Part shown: positions 15,684 through 39,883 of the stretch, piece by piece
Layout: every line of letters begins with the position of its first letter
How positions within the stretch are numbered: position 1 is the stretch's first letter
Assembly: GCA_017550535.1 (NCBI GenBank)
Contig: JAFZOS010000061.1
Location: 1 to 52,936 of the forward strand
Direction: 5' to 3'
Origin: Lachnospiraceae bacterium
GTDB taxonomy: Bacteria; Bacillota; Clostridia; Lachnospirales; Lachnospiraceae
DNA: 52,936 nucleotides
The notes under the pieces: model-generated
Database searches by the model: none
What the model was told of the DNA's origin: nothing
What the model saw: only the letters and a program-made list of their open reading frames with translations
Made by a program: the position numbers and the translations under genes

Positions 15684-15696
15684 GATCTACCTCCCG

Positions 15697-16002: not shown

Positions 16003-16017
16003 TTTTGACCCTTTCCG

Positions 16018-16311: not shown

Positions 16312-16321
16312 TTAGTGCACC

Positions 16322-16645: not shown

Positions 16646-16663
16646 ATTGCCTCCTTATTTACA

Positions 16664-21837: not shown

Positions 21838-21865
21838 AAACATTTCCTCCTAAGTGTGTCTTCAT

Positions 21866-23395: not shown

Positions 23396-23420
23396 TTTCC
23401 GACTCCTTCTTTATAAAGCC

Positions 23421-24968: not shown

Positions 24969-25014
24969 ATTTTATTCACATACCCAAAATAAAAATACAT
25001 ACTAAAAGTATACT
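24969..25014 (-). promoter_or_regulatory. Motif site A and promoter of the T7SS operon
   Basis: The 13-mer ATACTAAAAGTAT lies at 24999-25011. On the minus strand it continues as GTATTTTT and is followed 24 nt later by TAAAAT (24974-24969), a 5/6 match to the -10 consensus. There is no -35 consensus. The expected start near 24962 gives a 42-nt leader. Confidence 0.75.
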
Positions 25015-25030
25015 TTTTGAGTTTCATGCA

Positions 25031-25056
25031 AAAAAAAAGCTGCCTTAGCAGCTTTT
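25031..25056 (-). terminator. Rho-independent terminator after the NarL-type regulator gene
   Basis: Nine-base stem AAAAGCTGC / GCAGCTTTT (25056-25048 with 25043-25035) and a 4-nt loop, ending in eight T on the minus strand. The stem begins inside the stop codon of the regulator gene, and the T7SS promoter follows within 20 bp, so the two operons are insulated. Confidence 0.92.
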
Positions 25057-25678
25057 ATATCAGATATCTCCTAATATCCCCTCTCTTCTCAAGTGCCAGC
25101 TTCTCTTTAATGGAAGCAACAAGCTTTTTGGCATAAGGCATTGAGATATAAAGGATATCGCATATCTCCCGGTCGGAACGAAACTCCGCCATGAGCCTTG
25201 CGACCTCAAGCTCCCTGTCTGTAAGCGGCTCCGGCAGTGACTTTAATTTATCTTCGTCGAGCTTTCCCCTTTCTTCCTGATCGGAATATAGGTCAAGGTA
25301 ATGCTGTACCCTCGCAAACAATACGGTACTTGCCACGGGCTTTTTAAGATAATCGACCACATCCATCTCAAGCCCCTTACATTCCGACATCTCATCGGTC
25401 ATTCCCGTAAGAAATACGACCGGTATCTTCTTAAACCCTTCATTTAACTTAAGCCTGTTTAGCACCTCATACCCGTCCATATCCTTCATCATGATATCAA
25501 GAAGTATAAGGTTTGGAAGGCCTTCACCTCCATTCCTCACCTGCCTGTCCTTAAGGTACTCAAGGGCGTATTCCCCGGAGGCAAAGTCGATCACATCATA
25601 AAGGACTTCAAGCTGTTTTTTCATGAGTTTTAAGGTTTCAACGTCATCATCTATTATCATTACCCTCTTCTTATCCAT
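25055..25678 (-). CDS. Response regulator, receiver plus LuxR/NarL-type HTH
   Basis: Residues 5-125 are a receiver domain with the acidic pocket (Asp10-12), phosphoacceptor Asp61 (LILLDIMM), Thr in FLTGM and the conserved Lys in LKKP. Residues about 148-207 are a LuxR/NarL-type helix-turn-helix beginning LTDRELEVARLMAE. It overlaps the hybrid kinase gene by 8 bp, so the two are a translationally coupled two-component pair. Its operon has motif site B and ends just upstream of the T7SS promoter with site A. NarL-class regulators bind short inverted repeats much like the motif, which makes this the leading candidate for the regulator of the local regulon; that link is inference. Confidence 0.9.
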   Translation of the reverse strand: MDKKRVMIIDDDVETLKLMKKQLEVLYDVIDFASGEYALEYLKDRQVRNGGEGLPNLILLDIMMKDMDGYEVLNRLKLNEGFKKIPVVFLTGMTDEMSECKGLEMDVVDYLKKPVASTVLFARVQHYLDLYSDQEERGKLDEDKLKSLPEPLTDRELEVARLMAEFRSDREICDILYISMPYAKKLVASIKEKLALEKRGDIRRYLI

Positions 25679-27827
25679 GCTTTAACTCCTCCTCAACCCT
25701 TAATTTTACTATGCCCTCTCGCACTCGCTTAAACTCATCGATCAGCATTCCGTTGGCTTTTACGGAAAAATCATTATCCCTTCTTAACTCAATAGTCTCT
25801 GCAAGCTCGGCAAGAAGATAGGCTCCGATCCCCCTGGCTACCGATTTTGCGGAATGCACCCGTATGTAATAATCATCATCATATGTCGTTTTTCTTAAAT
25901 ACCTGATACCATCATCGGCATAATCCTCAAACAGAGCTGTCCGGTTTAAGAACTCGTCAACATCCCCGCCGTTATTATCGATCGCCGTCTTTATATTGAT
26001 ACCGTACGGCATCAGCATTTCCTGATAACTTTCGATCCTGGATACGGAAAGCCCGCTCTCCTCCTCCATTTCTATGGACATTATCTTATCGGGGATGTAT
26101 TTGCGTATTGTCTCAAAAAGGAGCGTGGAGTTTATTGGTTTTGAAAGGAAATCCGAAAAACCGCGCGCAAGCATCTTATCCTCGATCCCGTTCATTATAT
26201 CGGCGGTAAGCAGGATCACGGGCGTTTTAAGATCCGGATATTCCTCCTTCATCTTATCAAGAGTCTCGGCGCCGTCCATCTTAGGCATACGAAGATCCAT
26301 AAAGATCAGGTCGTATTCCTTTATATCTATCATCTCAAGCGCCTCAAATCCGCTTTCCACGCTGTCAACATGTATAAGGGTAGGCTCTAAAAAGTTTTCA
26401 ATTATCTTTAAGTTAAACGGTGTATCATCGACAACCAGTATCTTCGCTTCAGGCGCAACAAACCGTTTGAGCGTCTGCTTTTCATCTGTTGATTCTTCCT
26501 TTGTCAATTCCCTCTTTTCTGTTTCATCAATATGCTCCTTAAGCGGTAACTTTACGTAAAACGCAGTCCCGACATTAACCTCGCTTTTACAGTCAATGCT
26601 TCCGCCAAGGACATCCACAAGCTCCTTTACGATCGCAAGTCCCAGCCCGCTTCCGCTTGTCTCCCTGTAAACATCCTGGACTCCCCTTTCAAACGGCTTG
26701 AAGATATTGGCAAGGTACTCGGGCGCTATTCCCACACCGGTATCGGTTATCGTAAGCTTAAGCTCCCCGTCCCAGTCGACGTTTAAGATAACACTCCCCG
26801 CCCTTGTATATTTGACGGCATTACTTAACAGGTTATTCGTTATCTTCCTTATTACATCCTCATCGCCCTTGAGGAAGGCCGGCACCTCAGGGGCATGCTC
26901 ATATATAAAATCAAGTCCCTTCCTGTCCGCCTGCGGCTTCCACAACCTTTGCGTTTCCTTAAACAGGCGCGAGATATCGAGCGGCCGCTCTATAAGCTCG
27001 ATCTTTCCGGCTTCGATTCTTGTTAAGTCAAGCATATCGTCTATAAGCGACAAAAGGATGCGTCCCGAAACATTACTGTCATTGACCCATTCCCTTATCC
27101 TTGCCGAGGATGTGTTGTCGGCTATCATCTCGTTCATCGCAAGGATGGTATTGATGGGCGTCCTTATATCATGGCTCATCTTGGCCAGGAAATCACTCTT
27201 TGCCCTGTTGGCTTCATCCGCCGCCCTGATCGCCTCGTTAAGCTCATTCTGCTTTTTCCTGTAAATACGTATCTGTAAGTACATGGTAAGGGCAAGGCTT
27301 ATGGCGACCACCATCCCGCTGAACCAGACATCCAGCAAAACAGATATTTCGTCTTCAAGTGCGGAAACCATTTCGGGATTCGCATACGCAACACACATAA
27401 GCCCCGAATACCATACAAGCTCCAAAAGCACAAATATCGGCATTGAAATCCCGTCAAGCATGAAGGCCGTAAAAACTATCGCGAAAATAAAGAATGTCGG
27501 CATACCGCTGTGATACCCGCCGCCCGAGAAAAACAGGAACGTAAACAGCCCGATAAAAATGATCAGTATGGTAAGGATCATGGCCGGTTTGTATTTACCT
27601 GTCTTTCTTGTATAAAGAAGAAGTGCAAGGGATATGAACATCCCGACAAAGCATGCAAAGAAACCGAAAAACGAAGCCTCAACCAACAGATTGATAAAAG
27701 CCGTGACAACACATATTATAACACCACAGAGGGCCAGGATATTAAATATCCTGGCTCTCAGATCATCCCCTTTGGGGAATATGATATCTATAAACTTTTC
27801 CAGCTTTTCCCTTTTTTCATTATCCAA
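25671..27827 (-). CDS. Hybrid sensor histidine kinase (TM - HisKA - HATPase - REC - Hpt)
   Basis: A membrane-bound hybrid kinase of about 718 residues that should phosphorylate the overlapping NarL-type regulator by phosphorelay. Order: about six transmembrane segments with very short loops (30-190), HisKA with His222 (AKMSHDIRTPINT), an HATPase domain (G-boxes LTITDTGVGIAP and SGSGLGLAIV), a receiver domain (LVVDDTPFNL, FMDLRMPKMDG) and a C-terminal Hpt-like region with HSAKS. There is no extracellular sensor domain, so the signal is probably in the membrane or internal. No ATG fits. A TTG at 27836 abuts the GGGAGG, while the TTG at 27827 is nine bases from it and is preferred. The -10 of site B puts the transcript start almost on this ribosome site. 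Confidence 0.92.
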   Translation of the reverse strand: MDNEKREKLEKFIDIIFPKGDDLRARIFNILALCGVIICVVTAFINLLVEASFFGFFACFVGMFISLALLLYTRKTGKYKPAMILTILIIFIGLFTFLFFSGGGYHSGMPTFFIFAIVFTAFMLDGISMPIFVLLELVWYSGLMCVAYANPEMVSALEDEISVLLDVWFSGMVVAISLALTMYLQIRIYRKKQNELNEAIRAADEANRAKSDFLAKMSHDIRTPINTILAMNEMIADNTSSARIREWVNDSNVSGRILLSLIDDMLDLTRIEAGKIELIERPLDISRLFKETQRLWKPQADRKGLDFIYEHAPEVPAFLKGDEDVIRKITNNLLSNAVKYTRAGSVILNVDWDGELKLTITDTGVGIAPEYLANIFKPFERGVQDVYRETSGSGLGLAIVKELVDVLGGSIDCKSEVNVGTAFYVKLPLKEHIDETEKRELTKEESTDEKQTLKRFVAPEAKILVVDDTPFNLKIIENFLEPTLIHVDSVESGFEALEMIDIKEYDLIFMDLRMPKMDGAETLDKMKEEYPDLKTPVILLTADIMNGIEDKMLARGFSDFLSKPINSTLLFETIRKYIPDKIMSIEMEEESGLSVSRIESYQEMLMPYGINIKTAIDNNGGDVDEFLNRTALFEDYADDGIRYLRKTTYDDDYYIRVHSAKSVARGIGAYLLAELAETIELRRDNDFSVKANGMLIDEFKRVREGIVKLRVEEELKHG

Positions 27828-27847
27828 ACCGAACAACCTCCCTGTTT

Positions 27848-27890
27848 ATTCTATTACGGATCATCGGAAAATGCTATATACTAAAAGTCT
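27848..27890 (-). promoter_or_regulatory. Motif site B and promoter of the kinase/regulator operon
   Basis: The variant 13-mer ATACTAAAAGTCT at 27878-27890 overlaps the stop codon of the Ig-protein gene. On the minus strand it is followed after 24 nt by TAGAAT (27853-27848), a 5/6 match to the -10 consensus. The predicted start near 27841 falls at the GGGAGG ribosome site, giving an extremely short leader. Confidence 0.6.
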
Positions 27891-30800
27891 ACTTCCACAC
27901 TCCGCCTATCAGTGCGCTGCCATTTGTTTTCCATTTGCCCGTCTTCCTGCTGATCTTAAAGGTAAATGTCTTTGTACCGCCGAGCATCAACTCGTTACCC
28001 GAAGCATCCTTACCGGGGATACCCCTTACAGTCACCTGGGCCGTTCCCGTTTTGTCATTCTTGCTGTAACCGGTTACCACAAAGTTAACACCGGGTACAA
28101 GCTTTACATTATTATATGTAAGCCATCCCGTCATATCTTTATCGGTCAGGGTGACCGGGCAGCCTCCGTAAACCTTTTCGATATTTTTAACCATAACCAC
28201 CCTGTTTATAAGCTGTGACTGATCTATAAGCCGGTATGCTGCCTCAGCGGTTCCCGTATACTCATCGCTCTTAGCCTTAAGTTTAATGGTTATGAGGGTA
28301 CCTGTCGCAGGGGCTGAACTGATGACTGCTCCGTTTACTTCAAATCCCACTATCTCATAGTCCTTTACGCCGAGCTTCTTTCCTCCGTCAGTTACGGTAA
28401 GTACGGGCTTGTTCCACTTCTTCGCATCCGCAACATCATCGGCCGTTATCGTTACATCACTTAATTCCCGACTTACTATATCAAAATACAGTAATTTGGT
28501 GAACTTATAATTTCCCTTGCCCACTACCTTGGCATAAGCATTCTTCCTTCCGTATGTAAGCTTTGAATTTCCCGCATAGGATATCTTATAATCGGTCCCT
28601 TCGGTGAGTAACCTGCCTGTGTCATTATCCTTTATCGCAACCGCCGGCTTGACACCGCTCTTTACAAAAGGTACGGAGCTCTCAATATCAAAGCTTAAGT
28701 TTTCCTCTGTCTTTCCGGCCTTTATGGTAAAGCCTGTCGAAATACTGCCAACATAACCGCCTTCCCTTGAATCGTTTGCACTTACGGTAAGGATTGCCTT
28801 GCCGGGAGCTGTATTGTTTAAATAGGATACGCTGTAGTAATCCGGATCAACCACCTTTCCCGTGCTGTCTGTCACCGTGATCTCACCAGCATTAAGCACG
28901 ATGGGTACTCCTGTCCAGGTTTTTTTGGATGTTGTAAGCTTTACCTTGCCCTTTGACAGCATCCTCTTCTGATCCCCGACAACGGTAACTTTAACATCCA
29001 GGCTTCCTTCAAAGTTACTGCCGGTGGGCTTAATGACTGCAGTGTATACACCTTCAACTGTCGGTGCGCTCACCGCCTCACCGGCTGCGTTTTTGTAGGA
29101 TACACTATAGTTCTTAGCTGAAAGTGCAAGTCCTGTATCCTTCCATTTAACATTTATCACAGGCTTTAATGCCCTGCCGTTTGCGGCCTTTATGTCTACG
29201 CTGTCGGCAATTATATCCTTACCGAATACCGCGGGAACAATAGTAAAATTAATATCCTTCGGAGCCGTTGCCTTGTAATTGTTTATAAATGTCACCTTAA
29301 GCTGTGCATCCTTACCGGCGTTTATATTATTCTTATACATAACACTGTATTCGGTACTGCCAAGTAAGTTAACGCCGTCATATACACGGATCTGAGGCTT
29401 TATCTTTCCGCCTGTGTAAACATAAGAACTCTTTATACCACCAACCCATATCTTTGTTTCTATCTTTTCTTCACCGCTCTCGGTTACGGTTTTTTCCACT
29501 ATATCATCTATGATTTTGTCAAGGTCATCATTATCATCGTCAGGGTCAGGTTCAGGATCAGGGTCCCCGGAATTCTCTTCCGTTACTTCAACATCACATT
29601 TTGCACTGAAGGTTCCGCCCTTTGCGGTAATACTTGCCGTTATGGTCGTGCTGCCTGCCTTAACGCCGGTAACAACCCCTGTAACGGCATCAACCGAAGC
29701 AATGTTATCATCGCCCGATGACCATGTCACAGTGGCCGTTTCGGTTGCATTTGAAGGTAAAACCGATGCCGAAAGTGCCAGGGTTTTTCCTTTTATGATA
29801 TTGCCCTGCGAAGGTGTGACCGTGATCCCTGTTATGTTTGTTACTGAAGGGCCCGGGCTCGGCGTGGGCTGTACAGACGGTATTTTTGTATATGTTTCCG
29901 TTACCACGGGACTCATGATCCGGTCATCCGATACTGCAACAGCCTTAACTGTGGTCGATCCAAATGCGCCGATATCCGTAAATGTCACCCTGCCTGTACC
30001 TGATCGTGAACTAATCGTGGGGTCGGTTCCGTCGGTGGTGTAATATATGACATCAGTTGGCTTATCCGCAACGATAGTTACTTCATGTTGATCATAAAAA
30101 GTTGTTGACGCAGGTGATATCACCGGTGATACGGTCGCATCCGGCGTTGTTATGCTCCTGCTTACTGCAAGGGCCGGACTTACTGTGTAATAATTTGATC
30201 CCTTAAAACGTACTGCTCCCGTGATCGTCTCTCCTGCCCCCGCAGTATAGCTGTTTTCATCCTTATAGCTTTGACCGCCGTCAAAACTGTATTCAAGTGA
30301 ACCTCTCCCGCTCACACCACTTAAGTCAAATGCAACGGCATAGCTTTTCTTATCAGCTGATAAGGGACATGTTAATGCCAACGTCCCTGTGGGTGCAGCC
30401 TGAGCTTTTTTCTCCACGTTAACAGTAAATGTTTTGGAGTCTCCCGTACAGGTAGATGTTCCCACTAAATCCACTTTTATTTTTGCGGTTCCTCCACCTA
30501 CGATGTAGAATATTCCATAATTTCTATCCTCTAAAATATCGCTTCCTTCAATAATGGAATAGGTCAGCGTTGCATTAAAGGGAGCCTTTCTTACCCCAAA
30601 GGCTTCACTGACACTAAACCAATCTGAGCCCGGATTTATAATCTGTTTATTTATTACATCCCTTTCCGCCGTGAGCTGCCCCCTGTACTTGGTTACCGTC
30701 AATTGATAGCTTGTAGAAACCTCTTGATAATCATAATACATATCATTTATCTCTACATCCTGCAATTTTTTTGCGGTTGCCTTTATCGTGGTGGTGCCTA

Positions 30801-31926
30801 TGCCCGTTAATGTCAGTAAGCCGTCTTCAGTAATAGTAGCAACATCATTGTTGCTGGATTCATATTTTATTTCTCCTCCCCAAAACAGATAAGTGATTAC
30901 TTCCGTACTATATGGATCCGTAATTGTAAGGTTGTTGTAATCCAGTATTGTTTCACCGTACACTAACGATTGTTCATCATATTCAAACGTCAATGTGACA
31001 GCGGTCACATCTTTTACCGATACCGTAACGTCATCCGTGGCAACTATATCGCCTGATTCATATTTGGCTGTTATTGTATAATTACCGGGTGCCGTACCCC
31101 CTGCTATCGTTATGGTCTTGCCTGAAGCGCTTATTCCGCTGGCACTTGAACAATCCCAGGTAAGAGAATCCTTTTTATCCGATCCGTCAGTCGAGAGTAT
31201 CGCACTGTCTACAGTCAGTGTGCTGGCTGATGTGCTTTTACTTACCTTGTTATTTGACAGAACAACATTAAGCCCGACGTATTTTGCAGTAACCGTCAGG
31301 TCGCTGTTTATCGCTTCTGACGGATCAAACTTGCTTCCATCCTGCTTAAACCAGCCCCGGAAATTCATATCATCTTTTACGGGGTCATCGGGAGCACTGA
31401 CAGTTCCGCCCGAAACAACTTCCTTTTTGGTTGATCCAAACCCGCCGTCCGCATCAAATGTAACTGTATGAATCGTACTTGACGGATCAACAATTGTTAC
31501 ATTGCATTTGGCACCTCCGTCTACCCAGGCGCCATTTTTACATACTTCGCTGCCGACAATAAACTTGGCTCCGGGAACAGTCGTGTCATATGTTTTTACA
31601 ATGAATTTATTATCTTCATTACGCCAGTTATATATACAGTAATGCCAACTTTCGGGGTCTGTAGGATCAGGCCCGCCAATATCCTGCGTATTAAAGTCAT
31701 ACAATAAATATCCGTCACGGAGTGTTGCACTAACAGCCCTTTCTTCTCCGGGTTTAAAGCACATTTCCGAATAATCAAAAACGACATCGGACACACTCTT
31801 CGCATGTGCCGTTACGATACCTGCACCGATCCGCTGCGCCACGGCGGTACTCGGAAACATAAGTATTATCGCCGTCATTACGATAAACCTGTACTTTAAT
31901 CGTCTGAACCATTTGTTAGTGCTCAT
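27889..31926 (-). CDS. Large secreted multi-Ig-like protein
   Basis: A 1345-residue exported protein with a Sec signal peptide (Arg/Lys n-region, hydrophobic core, AVA and AHA cleavage candidates at about residues 28-42). Modules in order: an InlB/Listeria-Bacteroides repeat at about 153-216 (FDADGG, FRGWF), several Ig-like segments, a chitobiase C-terminal-type repeat at about 605-665 (YYTTDGTDPT), a Big_2 domain at about 695-780 (VTWSSGDDNIASVD), an acidic Asp/Pro/Glu linker near 785-800, then four or five divergent Ig-like repeats sharing a Y-x-V-x-Y-x-N-N pattern. There is no LPxTG or other visible anchor, so it may be released or bound non-covalently. Motif sites C and D lie upstream, and AAGGAGG precedes the ATG by six bases. 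Confidence 0.85.
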   Translation of the reverse strand: MSTNKWFRRLKYRFIVMTAIILMFPSTAVAQRIGAGIVTAHAKSVSDVVFDYSEMCFKPGEERAVSATLRDGYLLYDFNTQDIGGPDPTDPESWHYCIYNWRNEDNKFIVKTYDTTVPGAKFIVGSEVCKNGAWVDGGAKCNVTIVDPSSTIHTVTFDADGGFGSTKKEVVSGGTVSAPDDPVKDDMNFRGWFKQDGSKFDPSEAINSDLTVTAKYVGLNVVLSNNKVSKSTSASTLTVDSAILSTDGSDKKDSLTWDCSSASGISASGKTITIAGGTAPGNYTITAKYESGDIVATDDVTVSVKDVTAVTLTFEYDEQSLVYGETILDYNNLTITDPYSTEVITYLFWGGEIKYESSNNDVATITEDGLLTLTGIGTTTIKATAKKLQDVEINDMYYDYQEVSTSYQLTVTKYRGQLTAERDVINKQIINPGSDWFSVSEAFGVRKAPFNATLTYSIIEGSDILEDRNYGIFYIVGGGTAKIKVDLVGTSTCTGDSKTFTVNVEKKAQAAPTGTLALTCPLSADKKSYAVAFDLSGVSGRGSLEYSFDGGQSYKDENSYTAGAGETITGAVRFKGSNYYTVSPALAVSRSITTPDATVSPVISPASTTFYDQHEVTIVADKPTDVIYYTTDGTDPTISSRSGTGRVTFTDIGAFGSTTVKAVAVSDDRIMSPVVTETYTKIPSVQPTPSPGPSVTNITGITVTPSQGNIIKGKTLALSASVLPSNATETATVTWSSGDDNIASVDAVTGVVTGVKAGSTTITASITAKGGTFSAKCDVEVTEENSGDPDPEPDPDDDNDDLDKIIDDIVEKTVTESGEEKIETKIWVGGIKSSYVYTGGKIKPQIRVYDGVNLLGSTEYSVMYKNNINAGKDAQLKVTFINNYKATAPKDINFTIVPAVFGKDIIADSVDIKAANGRALKPVINVKWKDTGLALSAKNYSVSYKNAAGEAVSAPTVEGVYTAVIKPTGSNFEGSLDVKVTVVGDQKRMLSKGKVKLTTSKKTWTGVPIVLNAGEITVTDSTGKVVDPDYYSVSYLNNTAPGKAILTVSANDSREGGYVGSISTGFTIKAGKTEENLSFDIESSVPFVKSGVKPAVAIKDNDTGRLLTEGTDYKISYAGNSKLTYGRKNAYAKVVGKGNYKFTKLLYFDIVSRELSDVTITADDVADAKKWNKPVLTVTDGGKKLGVKDYEIVGFEVNGAVISSAPATGTLITIKLKAKSDEYTGTAEAAYRLIDQSQLINRVVMVKNIEKVYGGCPVTLTDKDMTGWLTYNNVKLVPGVNFVVTGYSKNDKTGTAQVTVRGIPGKDASGNELMLGGTKTFTFKISRKTGKWKTNGSALIGGVWK

Positions 31927-31949
31927 CTTAAACCTCCTTAAAGGGCTGT

Positions 31950-31986
31950 GGATGAGTTAACGGGGACGCTTCTCCCTGACTCATCC
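31950..31986 (-). promoter_or_regulatory. Two-tier hairpin in the leader of the Ig-protein mRNA
   Basis: GGATGAGT (31986-31979 on the minus strand) pairs with ACTCATCC (31957-31950), and a second GC-rich stem (GGGA/TCCC) can form inside. It stands 24 nt before the start codon, immediately ahead of AAGGAGG, and could protect the message or modulate translation. I do not match it to a known riboswitch. Confidence 0.5.
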
Positions 31987-31989
31987 TGC

Positions 31990-32027
31990 AATATTTTGTA
32001 CCAAATCACATGGTAATACAAAATATT
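31990..32027. repeat. Inverted repeat around the Ig-protein -10 region
   Basis: Perfect 11-bp arms AATATTTTGTA (31990-32000) and TACAAAATATT (32017-32027) with a 16-bp spacer that contains the predicted -10 of the site C promoter. It could be an operator for a second regulator. Confidence 0.55.
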
Positions 32028-32055
32028 GTGGTTTAATACATACTAAAAGTATACT
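32010..32055 (-). promoter_or_regulatory. Motif site C and promoter of the Ig-protein gene
   Basis: The exact 13-mer ATACTAAAAGTAT at 32040-32052, followed on the minus strand after 24 nt by TACCAT (32015-32010), a 4/6 match to the -10 consensus. The flanks closely match site F: both read TTTGTATTAC-Y-AT at the -10 side. The predicted leader is about 77 nt. Confidence 0.65.
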
Positions 32056-32098
32056 ATTTAAAAATTTGTCACAAAAAACACGGGGTGATTCTTAATAC

Positions 32099-32111
32099 AT
32101 ATCAAAAATAT
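32099..32111. promoter_or_regulatory. Motif site D, degenerate copy
   Basis: ATATCAAAAATAT is a diverged form of the 13-mer, 59 bp from site C in the same orientation. Its left flank GTGATTCTTAATACATA is identical to that of site F, which marks it as a true relative and not chance. No -10 is found at the 24-nt position on the minus strand. It lies eight bases before the -35 box of the divergent YkgJ-type gene. Confidence 0.5.
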
Positions 32112-32118
32112 GCTTTTA

Positions 32119-32147
32119 TTGATTATATATCCGCATAAGAATATAAT
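32119..32147 (+). promoter_or_regulatory. Promoter of the YkgJ-type gene, leaderless geometry
   Basis: TTGATT (32119-32124), a 17-nt spacer and TATAAT (32142-32147), then six bases and the ATG at 32154. The transcript should start at the start codon. Confidence 0.65.
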
Positions 32148-32153
32148 TATCGC

Positions 32154-32804
32154 ATGAGACGGGACGTTGATATAAATGAAATATCGGACGGGAGGCGCTA
32201 CAAAAGCAGTGACATGGTAAAGGTCGGGTGTTCGGACTGCAGGGGCTGCTCCGAATGCTGCAGGCAGGTCGACGACACCATCATACTTGACCCTTACGAT
32301 ATCTGGCAGTTTAAGAAGGGCCTTAACTTAACCTTTGATGAAATGCTTGCCGAAAACACCGAGCCCGTGATCGAACTCGGGCTCGCGGACGGGCTGCTGC
32401 TGCCGCACCTTAAGATAAACACAACTGCAGGCGCTTGCTCTTTTTTAGGTTCCGACGGCAGGTGTACCATACATGCATTCCGTCCGGGATTCTGCCGGCT
32501 GTATCCTTTGGGACGCATTTACGAAAACGGTGGGTTTTCCTATTTTATACAGATAAACGAATGCCCTTATCAGGGTAAGACCAAGGTAAAGATAAAGAAA
32601 TGGCTCGGCATTAATGACCTGCCCTCATATGAAGCCTTCGTACTTAAATGGCACGATATCCTTGAAGAGAAAAGGAACGGGCTTACCGCCATAACGGATC
32701 AGTCGGAGCGCTCACGATATATCGTTGACTTTCTTAAGCGCTTTTATCAGGATCCGTATGATGAAGCCCGTCCTTTTTATGAACAGTTTAACGAAAGAGT
32801 GTGA
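32154..32804 (+). CDS. YkgJ-family Cys-cluster protein
   Basis: A cytosolic 216-residue protein of the YkgJ family (putative zinc- or iron-chelating domain). The N-terminal Cys cluster reads CSDCRGCSECC, followed by CSFLGSDGRCTIHAFRPGFCRLYPLG and a later Cys in NECPY, the family's eight-Cys pattern. Function in the family is not settled; metal or Fe-S binding is the usual proposal. It is a lone plus-strand gene between two minus-strand genes and ends 12 bp from the convergent clostripain gene. The ATG has no ribosome site, and the promoter places the 5' end at the ATG. A GGGAGG inside the gene is too far from the next in-frame ATG (18 nt) to support a shorter start. Confidence 0.88.
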   Translation: MRRDVDINEISDGRRYKSSDMVKVGCSDCRGCSECCRQVDDTIILDPYDIWQFKKGLNLTFDEMLAENTEPVIELGLADGLLLPHLKINTTAGACSFLGSDGRCTIHAFRPGFCRLYPLGRIYENGGFSYFIQINECPYQGKTKVKIKKWLGINDLPSYEAFVLKWHDILEEKRNGLTAITDQSERSRYIVDFLKRFYQDPYDEARPFYEQFNERV

Positions 32805-32816
32805 TTCTTATAAATA

Positions 32817-34970
32817 TCAGATCTCGGATTCGTATATCTCACCGTCTTTGATCTCGATGTAAACGGGATCGCCGGTCAACTCATTTCCAAATACGTCTTC
32901 CAGGCAGTACATATAGAAGAAATCGCCGTCACCCAGATCTTCATCCGTCATGACCATATCGTCACTCCAGGTGATCTCACCGAGTTCCACAAAATCCACA
33001 TCATCGTCATCGGATTCAAGATCGAATACTCCGAACAGGAAGGTTATCTTATCCCCTGCCTTAAGCTTTTTGACATCCCTTCCGCTTTGTCCGGTTTCGT
33101 CATCCATACCGTCATATACACCGAGTATCCTGTAATCCTCCGTATTATAATCATATACAGCCTTTATGAACATCTCCTCGCCGTTTAGCTTTACCGGTAT
33201 CGTATAAAGGTTGTAATCATCATTCTGCTCGATGAGTTCCGCATATACATACTCGCCGCCGATGGTCATCCATTCACCGTTGAAATTGTCTTCGAATACA
33301 CCGGTTTCATAATCAGCGTTTATATTGTTGTCGGAACCTAAGTAAATAAACGTTTCCGTTTCATCATCCATAAAGAAAAGCTGGAAGCTTACATTTGCTA
33401 TCGCCTCGAGACCGGAAGTCACCGAAAGCTGAAGGTATCCTTCGTCCGTAACATGCTGCGAGAACTCGATGTTATAATCCTCACCGCTTACGGGTTCCAT
33501 GGAACTTACGGATTCGTAGTATTCCTCATCCGGTATGTAACCTGCTTCGGAAATGATGCTTTCTCCGTTATTAAAATATTCGTCGTATTTTCCTTCCTCA
33601 GCCTGCGAAGTCGCAGCATATGCATCCTGCCAGGCCTGCTGCCATGCTGACTCGTCCCAGTCGCCGGATACGATACTTACATACTCGGCAAATGCAGTAT
33701 TATCGGAAACACGTGTATATTCTTCAAATAATTCATCATCAATGTACAGCGGATAGAATACTGACAGTCCGTTTGAATTTGCCCTGTTTGCTCCGTGAAC
33801 CTCATACTGAACGGCATCCTTAAGAGCCTGTGTTACGGATGCGGAATTCTCATTAAGTACACCTGATGTCTGTGCTACCAGGTCACCGATATCCACCATA
33901 TCGGAATATCCCTCTTTATCGTTGTTTCCTCCGTAATTCTCAGCCCTTGTTGCTCCCTGTGTGACTTCCCTGAATGATGAGACATCCTGCGTGGAAAGAA
34001 GAATCTCTCCCGAAAGCCCCTTATATGCCGATGAAAGCGCCGGTATCCTGGTCAAGTCCGTTACGGACAGTGTTGCAAGCGCATCCGTTTCATCCTCCGC
34101 GCATTTATCCATGTAGCTGTCTGCGATCTTTTTGCCAAGCTCCAATCCGCTTATACCCGTATCATTGCTAAGATAGCTTATAAAGTCCGTATATGCCCAG
34201 CCGCCTCCGGGTTCTACTTCCTCGGATGCGACCATGTAATGACCGTAACCCTGTATGGCTTCGGCTGTCTCTAAGCTGGCCATCAGGCAGGCATCAAATC
34301 CCACTACCTCGAGCGGAATATCGGCTCCCGTGATCGCTTCTTTTACTTCGGTAAGGCTTAAGTTATCCCCCTCATACAGCTCGTCGCAGCATACACCACC
34401 GACCGAACCGCCGCCGTGATCCCAGAATATGAGCATATACTTATCTGCCGGATAACTTGCAGAACCCCATTTAAGAAAGTCCCTGAGGTTACTTGCATCA
34501 CCCATTGATTTAGACGGTTCCGTTTTTTCAAGGATCATATTTCCGGGAACAACATGGTAGAAGTTTAAAAGATCCGGATCGACATCCGTAAATCCGTCCA
34601 TGTCATCGGAATAATCATTGATGTACCAGTTTTCCGTACCGCCGGCTTCAACCAGGATATTTATGTTGTCCGAATGCTGCGCATCCATCATCTCAGCCAG
34701 GTTCATCGTCGCACAGGCGCCTTCAGATTCAAGATCCGTTCCGCACATATACACCATTATCGTCCATTTGTCATCGCTTGACGATGTTACCGTACCTCCG
34801 GATGATTCTTCCCCGTAATCTTCTTCTCCTGTTTCGGTGTCTTCATATTCCGCTTCGTACTGTCCGTCATCCGATCCGCCCGATCCTATGGCTATCACTA
34901 TTATGATAAGCAAAAGGACGACCGCGGCAATGATAATGATCTTTAATTTCTTATTCTTCTTTTTTTCCAT
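32817..34970 (-). CDS. Clostripain-family (C11) cysteine peptidase, membrane-anchored
   Basis: A 717-residue peptidase of family C11. A Lys-rich start and one transmembrane helix (9-29) anchor it, with a Glu/Asp/Ser linker (about 33-66) holding the catalytic domain outside the cell. The catalytic His185 is in FWDHGGGSVGG and Cys228 in GFDACLMA; both are intact. Clostripain relatives cleave after Arg or Lys and are often self-activated. The C-terminal half (about 480-717) looks like beta-rich accessory domains. Motif site E lies 82-94 bp upstream of the start, so it is probably co-regulated with the T7SS operon and could process exported proteins; that role is inference. Confidence 0.92.
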   Translation of the reverse strand: MEKKKNKKLKIIIIAAVVLLLIIIVIAIGSGGSDDGQYEAEYEDTETGEEDYGEESSGGTVTSSSDDKWTIMVYMCGTDLESEGACATMNLAEMMDAQHSDNINILVEAGGTENWYINDYSDDMDGFTDVDPDLLNFYHVVPGNMILEKTEPSKSMGDASNLRDFLKWGSASYPADKYMLIFWDHGGGSVGGVCCDELYEGDNLSLTEVKEAITGADIPLEVVGFDACLMASLETAEAIQGYGHYMVASEEVEPGGGWAYTDFISYLSNDTGISGLELGKKIADSYMDKCAEDETDALATLSVTDLTRIPALSSAYKGLSGEILLSTQDVSSFREVTQGATRAENYGGNNDKEGYSDMVDIGDLVAQTSGVLNENSASVTQALKDAVQYEVHGANRANSNGLSVFYPLYIDDELFEEYTRVSDNTAFAEYVSIVSGDWDESAWQQAWQDAYAATSQAEEGKYDEYFNNGESIISEAGYIPDEEYYESVSSMEPVSGEDYNIEFSQHVTDEGYLQLSVTSGLEAIANVSFQLFFMDDETETFIYLGSDNNINADYETGVFEDNFNGEWMTIGGEYVYAELIEQNDDYNLYTIPVKLNGEEMFIKAVYDYNTEDYRILGVYDGMDDETGQSGRDVKKLKAGDKITFLFGVFDLESDDDDVDFVELGEITWSDDMVMTDEDLGDGDFFYMYCLEDVFGNELTGDPVYIEIKDGEIYESEI

Positions 34971-35021
34971 TATTGCCTTACTCCTTTTATCACATTATTA
35001 CACCAGGTACTTCTGCCATAT

Positions 35022-35064
35022 ATCATAATGAAATACCATGGCTTATGATACATACTAAAAGTAT
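35022..35064 (-). promoter_or_regulatory. Motif site E and promoter of the clostripain gene
   Basis: The exact 13-mer ATACTAAAAGTAT at 35052-35064, followed on the minus strand after 24 nt by TATGAT (35027-35022), a 5/6 match to the -10 consensus. No -35 consensus. The predicted leader is about 45 nt. It lies just past the stop of the TIR gene. Confidence 0.75.
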
Positions 35065-35089
35065 ACATTTGACTGACAGGCTTTCTGTT

Positions 35090-36040
35090 TTATTTTTTTA
35101 CAAAGAGACCTTTGACGGGTGTGAACGGGAGTATTTCCCCATCGGTAAGATAATGCCTGTATAACCTGTCGGTTTCCAACAGACACAGCATAAAGAATAT
35201 CACGGCAAGTAAGACAATGATAAAGAAAGGCAGTATAAAGCTGAATATGATCGCAACAACGGCTCCCACTACGGCAAACCATTGATTTAACCTTAATTGG
35301 GCAAGGACCGTAAATGCGATAAGGATCATACCTCCGATCAGTCCTCCGACAAACATCATAACGACCGCAAACACATATATTGCTATCGCGGAACCGAATA
35401 TGCAGTTCCCGGCTATCCTGTATTCTTCCTTTTTAAGGAAGTCCTTTTTTGTTATACCGACTTTTACATCGCTGGCCGGTTTTGTTTCGGCTCCCTTTTT
35501 TGTTCCTGCTTCCGCTTTTACTTCGACTACCGGTTTTGCATTGGTTTCCGGTTTGACTTCAGCTTCCGGTTTATCTTCAATGGGAGCTGCGGCCTGTTTG
35601 TATTCTTTGGATGATACATCGTTCTCCTTAAACAAAGGAGCCTTTGTAAGCTCAGCAAAGAAGTCATCTATTTTATCATATTTATATCTGTGGAGTGCCT
35701 GGATACGGTTAAGCCTCATCGCCATACCCGCGGGAAGCTCCACCGGCTCAAGATATACAAGTACCCTGCCCTTCCCGAGATCCCGGGCATAATTAAGCTC
35801 GTCCTTGCAGTTTTCGGAATTTAAGTAGTTTTCAGACAAAAAAGCAAGTATACCGACACAGCCGTTTAAGTGAGCGGCGATATTTTCATCCCATTCCGTT
35901 CCCGGATCGATACCTTCATCATACCAGATGTTATACCCCTCATTCAGAAAGTATTCAATTATCGGATAAACCCTGTCTGCATCCTTGTGCGAATAGCTGA
36001 CAAATATATAATCCCCGCCACCCGTATATGGTTTCATCAC
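35090..36040 (-). CDS. TIR-domain membrane protein
   Basis: Residues 10-130 are a bacterial TIR domain: FVSYSHKD at 13-20, a BB-loop region around W39-Y40-D41, and ENCKDEL with the putative NADase glutamate Glu81. A repetitive Lys/Glu/Pro/Val/Ala linker (about 140-195) leads to a C-terminal region with four hydrophobic segments (about 208-290) and a short tail. The TIR domain should be cytosolic. Bacterial TIR proteins can hydrolyse NAD+ or act as adaptors, often in phage defence; here no second defence gene is present. The gene overlaps the PrsW-type protease gene by ATGA, so the two are made together. Which role applies is open. Confidence 0.88.
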   Translation of the reverse strand: MMKPYTGGGDYIFVSYSHKDADRVYPIIEYFLNEGYNIWYDEGIDPGTEWDENIAAHLNGCVGILAFLSENYLNSENCKDELNYARDLGKGRVLVYLEPVELPAGMAMRLNRIQALHRYKYDKIDDFFAELTKAPLFKENDVSSKEYKQAAAPIEDKPEAEVKPETNAKPVVEVKAEAGTKKGAETKPASDVKVGITKKDFLKKEEYRIAGNCIFGSAIAIYVFAVVMMFVGGLIGGMILIAFTVLAQLRLNQWFAVVGAVVAIIFSFILPFFIIVLLAVIFFMLCLLETDRLYRHYLTDGEILPFTPVKGLFVKK

Positions 36041-36774
36041 AATCCCTCCGTTATTTCATCGGTACCCGTATACTCCGCGGCTTCCTCATGAGGAGATATT
36101 TCCCTGTCTTCGTTTGATAACTGCTTAAACTTTTTGATCGCTTTTCTTATAACCACTATCTCAAATACTATGAATGCAACAAGCAGGATAGTGTAATCCG
36201 TGCTTATGCAGAAATCGTAAACCCCATGGAGCAGTACAGGGACGATCAACGCAAGTTTAAGGTTTCGCGACCTGCCGGCATCATCCTGTGCGGCATCCGC
36301 GCATTTGGCAAGGCCGTAGTAATATCCCATAAATATCGCGTCTATAACATGTCCCGGAACACTTAACAGCCCACGGATGATGGCAATGTCAATACCCTCA
36401 TCAATCAGATAAAATATGTTTTCGACAGTTGCAAAGCCCAGTGAAACACATACGGCATACACTACCGCATCAAACGTATAGTTAAATTCAGGGTGCTTCC
36501 ATGTCACCTTCTTAAGGACGAAGTACTTGCCTGCTTCCTCCACCAGCGCGGTAACTATCATGTTGTCAAAAAGGATGAACAGCAGGTTCTGTTTATTTAC
36601 CGATGCGAAAACGACATCATCACAAAACATGCCTATCACAAGTGCGCTTATTACCGTAAGCGCACCTAAACCGAAAAGCTTAAGAAGCAGCTTTATGGGT
36701 TCCTTCTCTATCTTATCGGCCCGCCATACTATTATAAAAAGTATGATACTTGGTAAGATTGCAAGCAGAAACAT
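36037..36774 (-). CDS. PrsW-family intramembrane metalloprotease
   Basis: A 245-residue protein with eight or so membrane segments. The family motifs are present: LVEEAGKYF (Glu79, Glu80, Lys83), FDAVVYAVCVSLGFATVEN at about 101-119, His142 in PGHVIDAIFMG, and HGVYD at 183-187. Bacillus PrsW makes the first cut in the anti-sigma factor RsiW. In this operon an RsiV-like lipoprotein is two genes upstream, but no sigma factor gene is present. GGGAGG lies seven bases before the ATG and overlaps the end of the LysR gene, and the stop overlaps the TIR gene. Confidence 0.88.
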   Translation of the reverse strand: MFLLAILPSIILFIIVWRADKIEKEPIKLLLKLFGLGALTVISALVIGMFCDDVVFASVNKQNLLFILFDNMIVTALVEEAGKYFVLKKVTWKHPEFNYTFDAVVYAVCVSLGFATVENIFYLIDEGIDIAIIRGLLSVPGHVIDAIFMGYYYGLAKCADAAQDDAGRSRNLKLALIVPVLLHGVYDFCISTDYTILLVAFIVFEIVVIRKAIKKFKQLSNEDREISPHEEAAEYTGTDEITEGL

Positions 36775-36776
36775 AT

Positions 36777-37661
36777 TTAATCCTCCCTAATATTGTTTAC
36801 TATATCCCAGAACTTAAGAGCTACCTTTGACAACCTGCGCTCCGCACTCCTGACAAGAACATATCCGGCCATTACATCAGGCTTTGTTATCCTTTTTATA
36901 ACAACATCTTCTCCTACGTATTTTGCGGCCGATGCGGGATATATCGCGATACCCATTCCGTGTGCCGTCAGTTCGTAGGCATTTAACATATGTGCTATAC
37001 GGCAGATGATCTTGGGCTCCAGATTAAGCGGTGCGAACCAGTTTTCTATCTCCTTTCGCCGCGACTGCCTTGAAGGGATTATAAGTTCATAAGGAGCCAG
37101 TTCCTTAAGCTCAACGCTGTCGCCTTTTATGCCTGCAAGCGGATGCCCTTTCGGGATCATCGCCACCCACGGTTCCTCAAAGATGACGCGTCCGTCAAGG
37201 CCCTCCTCATCGTAAGGCAGGGTGATCACCGCCACGTCGCTCAATCCGGAGAGTACACGCTTTACCACATCATCGGAATTACCGTTCCACAGTTCGAACT
37301 CAACCAGAGGGTATTTTTCCTTAAAATCGACCATCCACTGTGCGAACATTTCGGGCGCGTGGCCTTCAACGGTTGCAAGGTAAAGCTTGCCCGACAGGCC
37401 TTCGCTCATTTCACGTATATCTTCCACCGACTGGTCGGACAGCTGCCGTATCCTTAAGGCATACTGTAAGAATCGCTCGCCCTCTTCAGTAAGCGCCAGG
37501 CCCCTTGCCTTTCTTATAAACAGTTGTGCGTCAAGCTCCTCCTCAAGGTCCCGTATCTGACGGCTTAAGGGAGGCTGGGCAATACAAAGCTTATCGGCTG
37601 CTTTTGTAAAGCTGCCTTCTTCCGCCACTGCCAGAAAATATCTTATATGCCTTAATTCCAT
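36777..37661 (-). CDS. LysR-family transcriptional regulator
   Basis: A 294-residue LysR-type regulator. Residues 1-60 form the winged helix (MELRHIRYFLAVAEEGSFTK at the start, then AQPPLSRQIRDLEEE), and residues about 90-290 the periplasmic-binding-protein-like effector domain. The effector is unknown. It follows the lipoprotein gene by 36 bp and precedes the PrsW gene by 2 bp, so it is embedded in an operon rather than divergent from a target, which is less usual for the family. Confidence 0.93.
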   Translation of the reverse strand: MELRHIRYFLAVAEEGSFTKAADKLCIAQPPLSRQIRDLEEELDAQLFIRKARGLALTEEGERFLQYALRIRQLSDQSVEDIREMSEGLSGKLYLATVEGHAPEMFAQWMVDFKEKYPLVEFELWNGNSDDVVKRVLSGLSDVAVITLPYDEEGLDGRVIFEEPWVAMIPKGHPLAGIKGDSVELKELAPYELIIPSRQSRRKEIENWFAPLNLEPKIICRIAHMLNAYELTAHGMGIAIYPASAAKYVGEDVVIKRITKPDVMAGYVLVRSAERRLSKVALKFWDIVNNIRED

Positions 37662-37697
37662 ACCTCATCCCGCCCCGACATTTTGATAGTTAAGCAA

Positions 37698-39098
37698 TTA
37701 TTCAAGGCTTATCAGTTCGACCGATGCGATGCTTTCCTCATACAGGTCTGCATTTTCATCAAAGGCATCTATCGGACAGCTGAAGCCGTAGAAATATGTG
37801 AAATTATCAGTCAGTATGACGATACCCATAGCCTGACGGGTATCCTCGTTTTCGCCGCTCTCCCAATCAACACGGTAAACGGGATAGGTGAGTGATTCTT
37901 CCAGTGCATCATCCTGTTTTGAACCCGATATACGTGCATCATTGTCAACAAGTGCGCATACGAAATTCTCGGCATATGCATCCGTATCCTGACCGTCCCT
38001 TTGTGAGTTGGGGTAGCACATGTTCGTGATAACGGTCATGCCGTCTTCCGTCATATCTTCATAATAATATGTGCCGTCATCGTTGTTTTCATTCTTTAAA
38101 TTTGTAAGGCCGGTAAATTCCGCCCCTTTAACGGCAAGCACGTTCTTAGATCCGATCTCCTCCTCGGCCGCCGCCTCATCATCCCCGATAACATCGCCGC
38201 GTCCTTCTTCGGCATAGTCATCATATATGAAGCCTTCCTTCAAAAAGTCAGCCATTTCTTCATACATGATATCGATCTGCTGGGAACCATCCGCATACGA
38301 GTTAAGATCGTAAGGTCCGAAATAGAAGCTTAATCCTGCAGGATCCACAGTGAATACATAAGCCGGATCGGCATCATCACCCTGCTCTTCATCAAGTTCG
38401 AAAAGGCTGAGTGATTCTTCAAGATCAAAGAAATTCCCGTCCGGGTATTTCTTATTGAGCTTGTCAATAAGGAGGCTCTTTAACTTATCTTTATCCGTAA
38501 TGATATCTGACAGAAGGATATCCTCGCCCGTTTTGGTATCTAAGTTAAACGCCTGATAAAAGTAATCTGGATGGGCGCCGCCCAAGTATCCGTTCTCTGT
38601 ACGAAGGAGGCTTACCGCCCTTTCATCTGCACATTTTAATGCAGTTTCCGAATATCTGAAATAGGTGTAATCCGCGCCTTCCTCCACCTGAGCAGCTGCA
38701 AACTCTTTTGCATCCTCCAAATTTGCATCGATCGACTCCTGATAAAAGGCCTTTTCGTTTTCATCGATCGCCTTAAGTGCCTCACTTAAGTCAGGATAAA
38801 CTTCCGCCGAGGCATCGGTGCAAAGGTAGGAATTACCGTAGCTTTCAAATATCATATGATCATCATTTTCGTCATAAACCGAAAGGTTAAAATCAACCGA
38901 TTTAAGCTCGGGCAGCTTTATCTCATCCGTTTCCTGCGCACCTTCCTTGTCGTCCGCTTCAGGGGCTTCCTCCTTGGCTGCTTCGTTTTTGTTTTTCCTG
39001 TTGTCATTTACATTTACGTTTACGTTGCACGCACACACAGATGACATTAAAAGAACCGCTGTAAGCATTACCGCTATCATCCTGCTCCTGTTTAACAT
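37698..39098 (-). CDS. RsiV-like (DUF3298/DUF4163) lipoprotein
   Basis: A signal peptide ends VCA-C, giving a lipid-anchored Cys24. An Asn/Val/Lys- then Glu/Asp-rich tether follows. Residues about 70-290 match the DUF4163/DUF3298 fold, whose hallmark GGAHPDYFYQAFNLDTKTGE is present. RsiV, the Bacillus anti-sigma-V lysozyme receptor, carries the same extracellular domain, but this protein lacks the cytosolic anti-sigma domain. It may therefore bind muramidase or peptidoglycan ligands; that is inference. A second module of about 130 residues follows residue 320. It lies between the flavin reductase and LysR genes in the site F operon. Confidence 0.82.
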   Translation of the reverse strand: MLNRSRMIAVMLTAVLLMSSVCACNVNVNVNDNRKNKNEAAKEEAPEADDKEGAQETDEIKLPELKSVDFNLSVYDENDDHMIFESYGNSYLCTDASAEVYPDLSEALKAIDENEKAFYQESIDANLEDAKEFAAAQVEEGADYTYFRYSETALKCADERAVSLLRTENGYLGGAHPDYFYQAFNLDTKTGEDILLSDIITDKDKLKSLLIDKLNKKYPDGNFFDLEESLSLFELDEEQGDDADPAYVFTVDPAGLSFYFGPYDLNSYADGSQQIDIMYEEMADFLKEGFIYDDYAEEGRGDVIGDDEAAAEEEIGSKNVLAVKGAEFTGLTNLKNENNDDGTYYYEDMTEDGMTVITNMCYPNSQRDGQDTDAYAENFVCALVDNDARISGSKQDDALEESLTYPVYRVDWESGENEDTRQAMGIVILTDNFTYFYGFSCPIDAFDENADLYEESIASVELISLE

Positions 39099-39131
39099 GA
39101 CTTTACCCTCCTGTTTCCTCTGTTAATGAGT

Positions 39132-39725
39132 TTATTTCCTTTTTGCCTGCTTTTTTACTGATCCCGGCTTTTTAACGGAATAACCGAACTTGCCGAGCTT
39201 CTTCCCAAGCGCAAAGTATTCACCGTGGGAATATGCGATAAGGCCGCATTTATCAAGCCTGAACCTGTCCTTTTCATCCATGTATGCTTCATCTACCGTA
39301 ACTCCGACGACTTCTGCGAGAAACATATCGTGCGAACCCAGCTTCTCGGTTTTTACGACCTTGCAGTAGATGTTTACGGGGCTTTCCTTTATAGCCGGCG
39401 CATTCATGAATTCGGACTTATACTTATGCAGCTTCATTTCCTTGAACTTGTCATGATCCCTTCCGGACTTTACTCCGCACCAGTCACATGACTTTACCAG
39501 CTTGTCCGTGACAAGGTTTATGACAAACTCACCGCTGTCTTTTATTATATCATAGGAATAGCGTTCGGGGCGTACAGATATCGACACCATGGCCGGATCG
39601 GAACATATGGTTCCCGCCCAGGCTACCGTTATGATATTTGCACTCTCTTCCTTCCTTTTACAGCTTACCATTACTGCCGGCACCGGGTACAGCATGTTCC
39701 CGGGTTTCCATGTCTTCTTTCCCAT
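39132..39725 (-). CDS. Flavin reductase-like (FMN-binding split barrel) protein
   Basis: A 197-residue protein of the flavin reductase-like family, which binds FMN in a split beta-barrel. Family features include the N-terminal block NMLYPVPAVMVS, then ITVAWAGTICSDPAMVSISVRPERYS and EFVINL. Clostridial members act as flavoredoxins or NAD(P)H:flavin reductases. The reading frame is open to 39779, but AGGAGG seven bases before the ATG at 39725 fixes the start there. It is the first gene of the operon running to the TIR gene and is placed under motif site F. Confidence 0.9.
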   Translation of the reverse strand: MGKKTWKPGNMLYPVPAVMVSCKRKEESANIITVAWAGTICSDPAMVSISVRPERYSYDIIKDSGEFVINLVTDKLVKSCDWCGVKSGRDHDKFKEMKLHKYKSEFMNAPAIKESPVNIYCKVVKTEKLGSHDMFLAEVVGVTVDEAYMDEKDRFRLDKCGLIAYSHGEYFALGKKLGKFGYSVKKPGSVKKQAKRK

Positions 39726-39789
39726 GACGGATCCTCCTCGTATAATATGTATCGTCCCCTCAAAAACAGTCGACGGCATATTTTACTAC

Positions 39790-39832
39790 ATAGTAATACA
39801 AACCCGTGATTCTTAATACATACCAAAAGTAT
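39790..39832 (-). promoter_or_regulatory. Motif site F and promoter of the flavin reductase-to-TIR operon
   Basis: The 13-mer variant ATACCAAAAGTAT at 39820-39832, followed on the minus strand after 24 nt by TACTAT (39795-39790), a 4/6 match to the -10 consensus. The site also lies 52 bp before the divergent OmpR-type regulator gene; a TATACT (39843-39848) could serve that plus-strand gene, in which case the motif covers its -35 region. Confidence 0.65.
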
Positions 39833-39883
39833 ACTAATATGATATACTCAGATAAGACATAGTTTTCCGAGGTATATATAGTT

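Follow-up and report, generated by a model that had tools for sequence, protein, structure and literature searches.

A fixed-spacing promoter site around a type VII secretion locus of a Lachnospiraceae bacterium and its predicted two-component regulator

Genes and sites of the locus

A stretch of 52,936 nucleotides (nt) of contig JAFZOS010000061.1 of a Lachnospiraceae bacterium (assembly GCA_017550535.1), positions 1 to 52,936, was analysed and is referred to below as the window. It carries, all on the minus strand, a type VII secretion system (T7SS) operon, the genes of a response regulator and a hybrid kinase, genes for an exported protein with immunoglobulin (Ig)-like domains and for a clostripain-family peptidase, and an operon running from a flavin reductase gene to a TIR gene (Table 1). 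A short conserved site precedes each of these units. The sites are very probably the landing place of one two-component regulator that would switch on secretion, protease and surface-protein genes together. The site itself, its spacing, its conservation, its co-occurrence with the regulator and the genes that follow it can be read directly from the genomes compared here.

The preliminary description of this DNA had reported five copies of ATACT-N3-AGTAT, each upstream of a named minus-strand gene, lacking a -35 consensus and separated by exactly 24 nt from a -10-like hexamer. All five positions and their placement relative to the genes were recovered, and so was the hexamer: TANNAT occurs exactly 24 nt after the 13-mer at 5/5 window sites (TAAAAT, TAGAAT, TACCAT, TATGAT, TACTAT). 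Identity of the copies did not hold throughout, the 13-mer being exact at 24999, 32040 and 35052 and carrying one mismatch each at 27878 and 39820. Allowing one mismatch, ATACTNNNAGTAT has 8 matches in the window, against a shuffle mean of 1.56. The extended 19-mer GTATACTTTTAGTATGTAT, in the minus-strand reading and with up to three mismatches, has exactly 5, all on the minus strand, against 0.02 expected; 0/100 shuffles gave five.

The motif is AT-rich, as it might be if the copies had arisen by chance in AT-rich DNA or belonged to a repeat or mobile element. We attach next to no probability to such an origin and hold it to be refuted by the 0.02 chance expectation, by conservation of the site across species (see below) and by its surroundings, since spacer and flank sequences mostly differ among sites while the block and the -10 hexamer are retained.

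Table 1. Features of the window (all on the minus strand)
Feature	Position	Strand	Basis or remark
Five WXG100 genes	15357..16966	-	Pfam WXG100 above cut-off, 5/5
EssC	17248..21843	-	TIGR03928, 1127 bits, cut-off 778
Paralogue of first T7SS gene	21866..23395	-	41% identical
First gene of T7SS operon	23421..24920	-	Coiled coil, probable transmembrane segment (by eye), PsbP/Mog1-like outer part
-10-like TAAAAT	24969..24974	-	24 nt from 13-mer
Predicted activator site, T7SS operon	24995..25013	-	19-mer, 0 mismatches
Response regulator, proposed binder	25055..25678	-	Receiver and LuxR/GerE helix-turn-helix (Pfam)
Hybrid kinase	25671..27836	-	Hydrophobic N-terminal part (by eye), HisKA, HATPase, receiver, HPt-like end
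-10-like TAGAAT	27848..27853	-	
Predicted activator site, hybrid kinase/regulator operon	27874..27892	-	19-mer, 3 mismatches; overlaps 3' end of Ig-protein gene
Exported protein with Big_2 domains	27889..31926	-	Pfam; signal by heuristic
-10-like TACCAT	32010..32015	-	
Predicted activator site, Ig-like surface protein	32036..32054	-	0 mismatches
Clostripain-family peptidase	32817..34970	-	Peptidase_C11, 1.6e-42
-10-like TATGAT	35022..35027	-	
Predicted activator site, clostripain	35048..35066	-	0 mismatches
Operon (by gene order): flavin reductase, DUF3298 protein, LysR, PrsW, TIR	35090..39779	-	Pfam
-10-like TACTAT	39790..39795	-	
Predicted activator site, flavin reductase-to-TIR operon	39816..39834	-	1 mismatch

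Promoter layout in related loci

Constancy of the spacing was assessed in 24 named loci, none of which had been used to define the pattern; sites less than 110 nt from a locus end were omitted. Among the sites with at most three mismatches, TANNNT lies exactly at 24 nt in 31/35 and at 23-25 nt in 34/35, the next commonest offset being 26 (8 sites). TANNNT has a background frequency of 0.015 per position; multiplying the base fractions of these promoters gives about 0.04 at their A+T content. Because several of the loci are closely related to one another, not every site counts as independent. Loss of the 24-nt spacing in relatives, named in the preliminary description as an outcome that would speak against it, was thus not seen, and its proposal of an activator site at fixed spacing gains support from these comparisons. 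In the window and the loci around the regulator in nine relatives, TANNNT was found exactly at 24 nt in 22 of 23 chosen sites, the choice comprising all matches with up to three mismatches except L061, plus two sites with four mismatches (L046:6812 and L050:1425) that were picked after viewing. Counted without choice (at most three mismatches, L061 included), the same loci gave 20/22.

A table of 79 sites was then available for analysis of the promoter as a whole. Since entry required TANNNT at 23-25 nt, plus ACTTTT for weaker sites, the sequence logo overstates those columns, and the -10 at 24 nt in 72/79 sites is to be read with this preselection in mind. Removal of near-duplicates reduced the 72 sites to 65 for the logo. 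If the -10 hexamer is placed at -12 to -7, the conserved columns extend from about -55 to -32, with the 13-mer at -49 to -37 and its centre at -43; further upstream, from about -56 as far as -76, information content is near zero. The -10 itself is of the plain TATAAT type. Across the 79 sites, those of the window included, TTGACA-like sequences at spacers of 16-18 match no better than at random positions, in agreement with the absence of a -35 consensus noted earlier in the window. A site that overlaps the -35 region, keeps a constant phase to the -10 and is accompanied by a degenerate -35 has the layout of a class II promoter. We propose that the fixed spacing and the missing -35 element would both follow from a class II activator occupying the -35 region.

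The fixed distance to the -10 and the lack of an ordinary -35 would also suit recognition by an alternative sigma factor, with the block as its -35-type element. Such an element is shorter than the block found here, which spans about 24 bp and ends some 20 nt before the -10, and the -10 is not of an unusual type. A Pfam scan of 30 proteins from the window revealed no sigma factor, in a search that did not extend to neighbours in the relatives or to the whole genome. We judge this explanation highly improbable. Scarcely better placed is a repressor that would block the -35 region, which the site indeed overlaps: there is no -35 left to block, and a repressor would not need the exact phase, yet 31 of the 35 held-out sites keep it. 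An activator with class II geometry accounts for these features more readily.

The site can be written as GTATAC-N5-GTATGT. A direct repeat with a shift of 11 scores 2.33 and an inverted repeat centred at -43 scores 2.03, so that a dimer may read either the direct repeat or the inverted repeat of the 13-mer. The first hexamer is the better conserved, being exact in 38/57 sites against 23/57 for the second, a difference that is partly due to selection.

Two further features of these promoters were observed. An inverted repeat straddles the -10 in 18/79 promoters (shuffle fraction at most 0.05; about 4 expected), examples being 32010-32054 in the window and L048:192, L053:16267, L096:948, L156:2951, L168:2386 and L176:2639. 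The figure is given as a total over all promoters, since L096 and L097 had been misassigned to the group lying behind the regulator. By eye, several of these repeats resemble intrinsic terminators of the upstream gene with the -10 of the next promoter in the loop; the repeat at 32010 is without a T-run and could be an operator. In addition, ACCT replaces ATGT at the downstream end of 9/79 sites (L046:6812, L050:1425, L135:3528, L137:4229, L138:4739, L140:1088, L160:1187, L164:1187 and L171:7681), six of which precede genes with a lipoprotein-type signal.

The response regulator and its co-occurrence with the site

The protein encoded at 25055-25678 has a receiver domain (Pfam Response_reg, 1.7e-19) with D61 in an LDI stretch that is invariant in 10 sequences. 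Its last 60 residues match GerE (3.8e-5) with 23.7 bits against a cut-off of 23.5; with the full protein the score, 19.9 bits, is below the cut-off. The best structural model has a four-helix C-terminal domain and a mean predicted local distance difference test (pLDDT) score of 80.7, residues 96-108 being its weak part; four further models score 50-70. A fold search with the full model placed RpaA, a regulator of the OmpR type, at the top, followed by StyR, with DesR, LiaR, VraR, FixJ and RcsB among the best 50. These matches are full-length, with TM scores of about 0.5, and are not decisive by themselves for the family. When the DNA-binding domain alone was used in sequence searches, the top match was named CAP repeat and the next ones were response regulators. 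On the strength of the GerE match and the domain-alone matches, the protein is assigned to the NarL/FixJ (LuxR-type) response regulators, with a receiver and a predicted tetrahelical domain. The kinase combines HisKA, HATPase and receiver domains in one chain (Pfam). Its C-terminal end resembles a histidine phosphotransfer (HPt) domain, the motif H661-x-x-K-S being conserved in 8/8 aligned kinases and the Pfam Hpt match being weak (0.16).

The kinase/regulator locus, referred to as the hub, was compared at 34 loci, made up of 10 genomes and the 24 named loci, some of them cut at contig ends. At 23/34 the site lies directly before one of the two hub genes, the regulator gene in three cases and the kinase gene in the others (24 of the 79 tabulated sites), which points to autoregulation.

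Of 36 further genomes of the genus, nine have a close relative of the regulator (69-90% identity). With the 60-residue DNA-binding domain as query (E at most 1e-8), the same ten of 37 genomes were recovered, the bacterium's own included, and no others. A scan of named genomes gave 42 loci, of which 33 are 54-90% identical and nine are distant receiver-domain matches. The 33 closer loci are named as Lachnospiraceae, Clostridiales, Eubacterium or Oribacterium and come mostly, judging by title, from ruminant-gut metagenome-assembled genomes; the isolates AC2028 and AC3007 are among them.

The site was sought in the same 37 genomes with a sequence model, R1, built from 21 sites. Strong R1 sites (E at most 0.001) are present in 10/10 regulator-positive and 3/27 regulator-negative genomes (Fisher test, 8e-7), and pattern sites with 0 mismatches in 9/10 and 1/27, respectively. 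(A later model, R2, was trained on 56 of 60 sites, omitting L134, L135, L136 and L140; its scores on its own sites are not used as evidence.) The preliminary description had singled out the regulator at 25055-25678 as the protein to footprint on the site; both its co-occurrence with the sites and the position of the site ahead of the hub genes support it as the probable reader.

Another regulator might read the site, the LuxR-type protein being merely a target: the LysR protein of the TIR operon, the OmpR-type regulator at 39884, or an unlinked factor. Three regulator-negative genomes do keep sites, the lysR gene lies inside one of the target operons, and the OmpR-type pair is divergent from the site at 39816. 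Distribution was compared for the LysR and the LuxR-type proteins. LysR homologues (E at most 1e-50) are lacking in four of the ten genomes that have both site and regulator (G035, G030, G012, G010), and 13/24 site-free genomes do have one (Fisher test, 0.49), whereas the LuxR-type regulator is found in 10/13 site-bearing and 0/24 site-free genomes. LysR was rejected as the binder for want of co-occurrence with the sites, and a different reader of whatever kind appears unlikely.

With good confidence, we propose that the LuxR/NarL-type regulator binds the 19-mer near -43 and acts by class II activation on its own operon, the T7SS operon and genes for exported proteins. We infer binding, phosphotransfer, activation rather than repression, and a signal, as follows. 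The hybrid kinase (HisKA-HATPase-receiver-HPt-like) would sense a signal and phosphorylate the regulator. The regulator would bind from about -55 to -32, standing in for the -35 element, and would make contact with RNA polymerase carrying sigma-A in the class II manner, turning on the targets just named.

A number of observations weigh against this proposal. At 11/34 hub loci, some of them cut, no site lies directly before the kinase or regulator gene; the hubs of G035 and G029 are uncut and still lack such a site, and in G002 the nearest one is several genes upstream of the kinase. Conversely, G003, G023 and G033 carry sites without a detected regulator, in assemblies that are 92, 90 and 85% complete. 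With up to two mismatches the pattern has 70 matches in 27/37 genomes against 53 for the reversed control, which leaves only the 0-mismatch class informative. The association is also partly built in, because the R1 training sites and the two degenerate letters of the pattern come from regulator-positive genomes, and many sites are orthologous, hence not independent. Among the targets, a close EssC is missing from 5/10 regulator-positive genomes (G002, G006, G008, G010, G012), and the clostripain orthologues of regulator-positive G029 and G008 are without the site. Finally, the symmetry of the site is ambiguous, as the two repeat scores given above illustrate.

G023 keeps the first part of the kinase gene. 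In this genome, where contig C253 ends (7739-8241 of L238), the N-terminal part of the kinase continues straight into a sequence that resembles WXG100 and is 81% identical over 32 residues to the first WXG100 protein of the window; the junction is either a deletion or an assembly chimera.

Beyond the genus, in a 295-genome sample of the order, R1 matches (E at most 0.001) were obtained in 2/294 other genomes, both weak and little above chance. One (L195) lies inside an 898-amino-acid frame and has TAAAAT at 23 nt and no TANNNT at 24; the other (L196) has no TANNNT at 24 nt and no same-strand gene behind it within 3 kb. None of four weaker matches examined away from the hub, in regulator-negative G009, G011 and G036 and on contig C71 of G035, has TANNNT at 23-25 nt.

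The 2.74-Mb genome of the bacterium itself has two 19-mer matches with at most three mismatches beyond the window, as many as the reversed-pattern control (2). One, at C1:55044, has TATAAT at 25 nt and lies upstream of a gene for an exported protein with an Ig-like match; the other, at C96:2086, has no -10 and falls at the start of an opposite-strand coding frame. Model R1 adds C72:10427 (E = 0.0013), with TATAAT at 24 nt, before the gene of a 1767-amino-acid exported protein. This gives 7 good sites in the genome, five of them inside the window. The regulon had been described as local; confinement to this locus is contradicted by the sites on C1 and C72 and by those on other contigs in relatives.

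Target genes and comparison with known systems

The first genes behind the 79 tabulated sites encode a kinase or regulator (24 sites), the first T7SS protein (9), exported or membrane-anchored proteins (42) or other products (4). One of the nine T7SS assignments, at L149, is by a 36-residue match only. The 42 exported or anchored proteins comprise 41 recognized by heuristic and one, at L048:192, by eye, its gene crossing the border of the stretch examined. The remaining four are a flavin reductase, a TIR protein, an 86-amino-acid frame and a 331-amino-acid protein. Away from hub and T7SS, 42 of 45 readable genes were scored as exported by heuristic (41 without the flavin reductase, a false positive), against 153/483 background frames.

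In its EssC and WXG100 proteins the T7SS locus of the window matches the Firmicute type VIIb. Five other proteins of the cluster gave no Pfam match when EssA, EssB and EsaA were sought, and may be divergent forms. Close EssC proteins (82-92%) occur only in regulator-positive genomes (the bacterium's own, G014, G029, G030, G035), more distant ones (33-39%) in other genomes of the genus. Inclusion of secretion in the regulon, as first described, is thus upheld in that the site heads the T7SS operon, but the tie is not obligatory, half of the ten regulator-positive genomes having a close EssC. A view of the site as a general mark of T7SS loci was rejected, for the same genome has a second, distant T7SS (L240, contig C85, 4763-10013; EssC about 34% identical) without the site.

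Tandem paralogues head the T7SS operon, two in the window (21866-24920) and three in G035. They share a well-conserved N-terminal coiled coil, a probable transmembrane segment and a fast-changing outer part. In a fold search, the first protein showed weak similarity to type VI immunity proteins (E 5e-5 for the best, TM score 0.16) and to single PsbP/Mog1 domains, with no function indicated.

Clostripain genes follow a site both in the window and in G014, there on another contig (81% identity). Clostripain was rejected as an always-regulated family, the site being missing at orthologues in negative as well as positive genomes: besides the two regulator-positive genomes mentioned above, five regulator-negative ones (G005, G007, G017, G022, G023) have orthologues (48-63%) without it, in a comparison that left out a second G017 copy. 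Sites also precede genes for proteins that resemble the DUF3298 protein of the window (47-72% over 158-172 residues) in G002, G006, G012, G030 and G023; Pfam DUF3298 was not matched in the three of these five that were scanned. The TIR gene stands in the window in a string with those of PrsW, LysR, the DUF3298 protein and flavin reductase (35090-39779). In G029, a TIR gene (L099:9029-9893) comes first behind a site, and its contig is not the one that holds the hub. Membership of the predicted regulon turns over between species.

By sequence, the DNA-binding domains of VraR and LiaR rank with the nearest of known structure, and both proteins are, as seen above, among the full-length fold matches. 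LiaR and VraR act on envelope stress genes, a different target set, and the kinase here is of the hybrid type. DegU, which belongs to the same family as the LuxR/NarL-type regulator, is a global regulator; in contrast, the present regulator has few sites in its own genome. In Bacillus subtilis, phosphorylated DegU (DegU-P) activates the yuk T7SS (PMC3701619), a response regulator switching on a T7SS operon as is predicted here; no shared fixed-spacing site appears in the passages of that paper considered here. A parallel in promoter design is B. subtilis ComA, likewise a NarL/FixJ protein with a LuxR-type tetrahelical DNA-binding domain. In the relevant passages of PMC4797271, ComA recognizes direct-repeat hexamers with a 5-nt spacer (an 11-bp period), the first better conserved, next to a poor -35 in sigma-A promoters; this direct repeat, at the class II position where ComA contacts sigma-A, is needed for strong activity. 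Read as a direct repeat, the present site would have the same 5-nt spacer and again the better conserved hexamer first. ComA promoters add an upstream inverted repeat (class I), whereas here nothing is conserved above about -56. The recognition hexamers also differ (TTGCGG for ComA, GTATAC/GTATGT here), and ComA serves peptide quorum sensing. LuxR boxes, about 20 bp long and usually centred at -42.5 (PMC4471428), resemble the site in length and position, and LuxR has the same kind of DNA-binding domain; unlike LuxR, the present regulator has a receiver and, in the Pfam scan, no lactone-binding domain, and its site has another sequence.

Response-regulator control of a T7SS is therefore already known from DegU-P, and the mechanism proposed is of a known kind. 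The regulon was not found in the portions consulted of the open-licence literature on T7SS control, on Lachnospiraceae and the rumen, on clostripain, on NarL proteins in Firmicutes or on the 13-mer.

The present data offer a ready regulon map, consisting of a site and its likely regulator, for the T7SS and surface proteins of gut bacteria, none having been found in the literature searched. The 79 tabulated sites are natural variants of what is predicted to be one class II promoter with near-invariant geometry. In genomes that bear the regulator, co-regulated surface proteins could be predicted from the site, as could possible T7SS substrates where a T7SS is present. Tentatively, and with somewhat less than even confidence, we suggest that rumen Lachnospiraceae have a phosphorelay regulon not described before, whose rigid promoter design (a single LuxR-type site 24 nt before the -10, with no -35) would join a T7SS, lipoproteins, secreted cysteine proteases, Ig-like surface proteins and a TIR protein. 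The hub and a few families would be kept while surface genes, those of the T7SS included, change fast between species. Such a regulon would serve competition or cell contact, and genes would enter it by acquiring the site.

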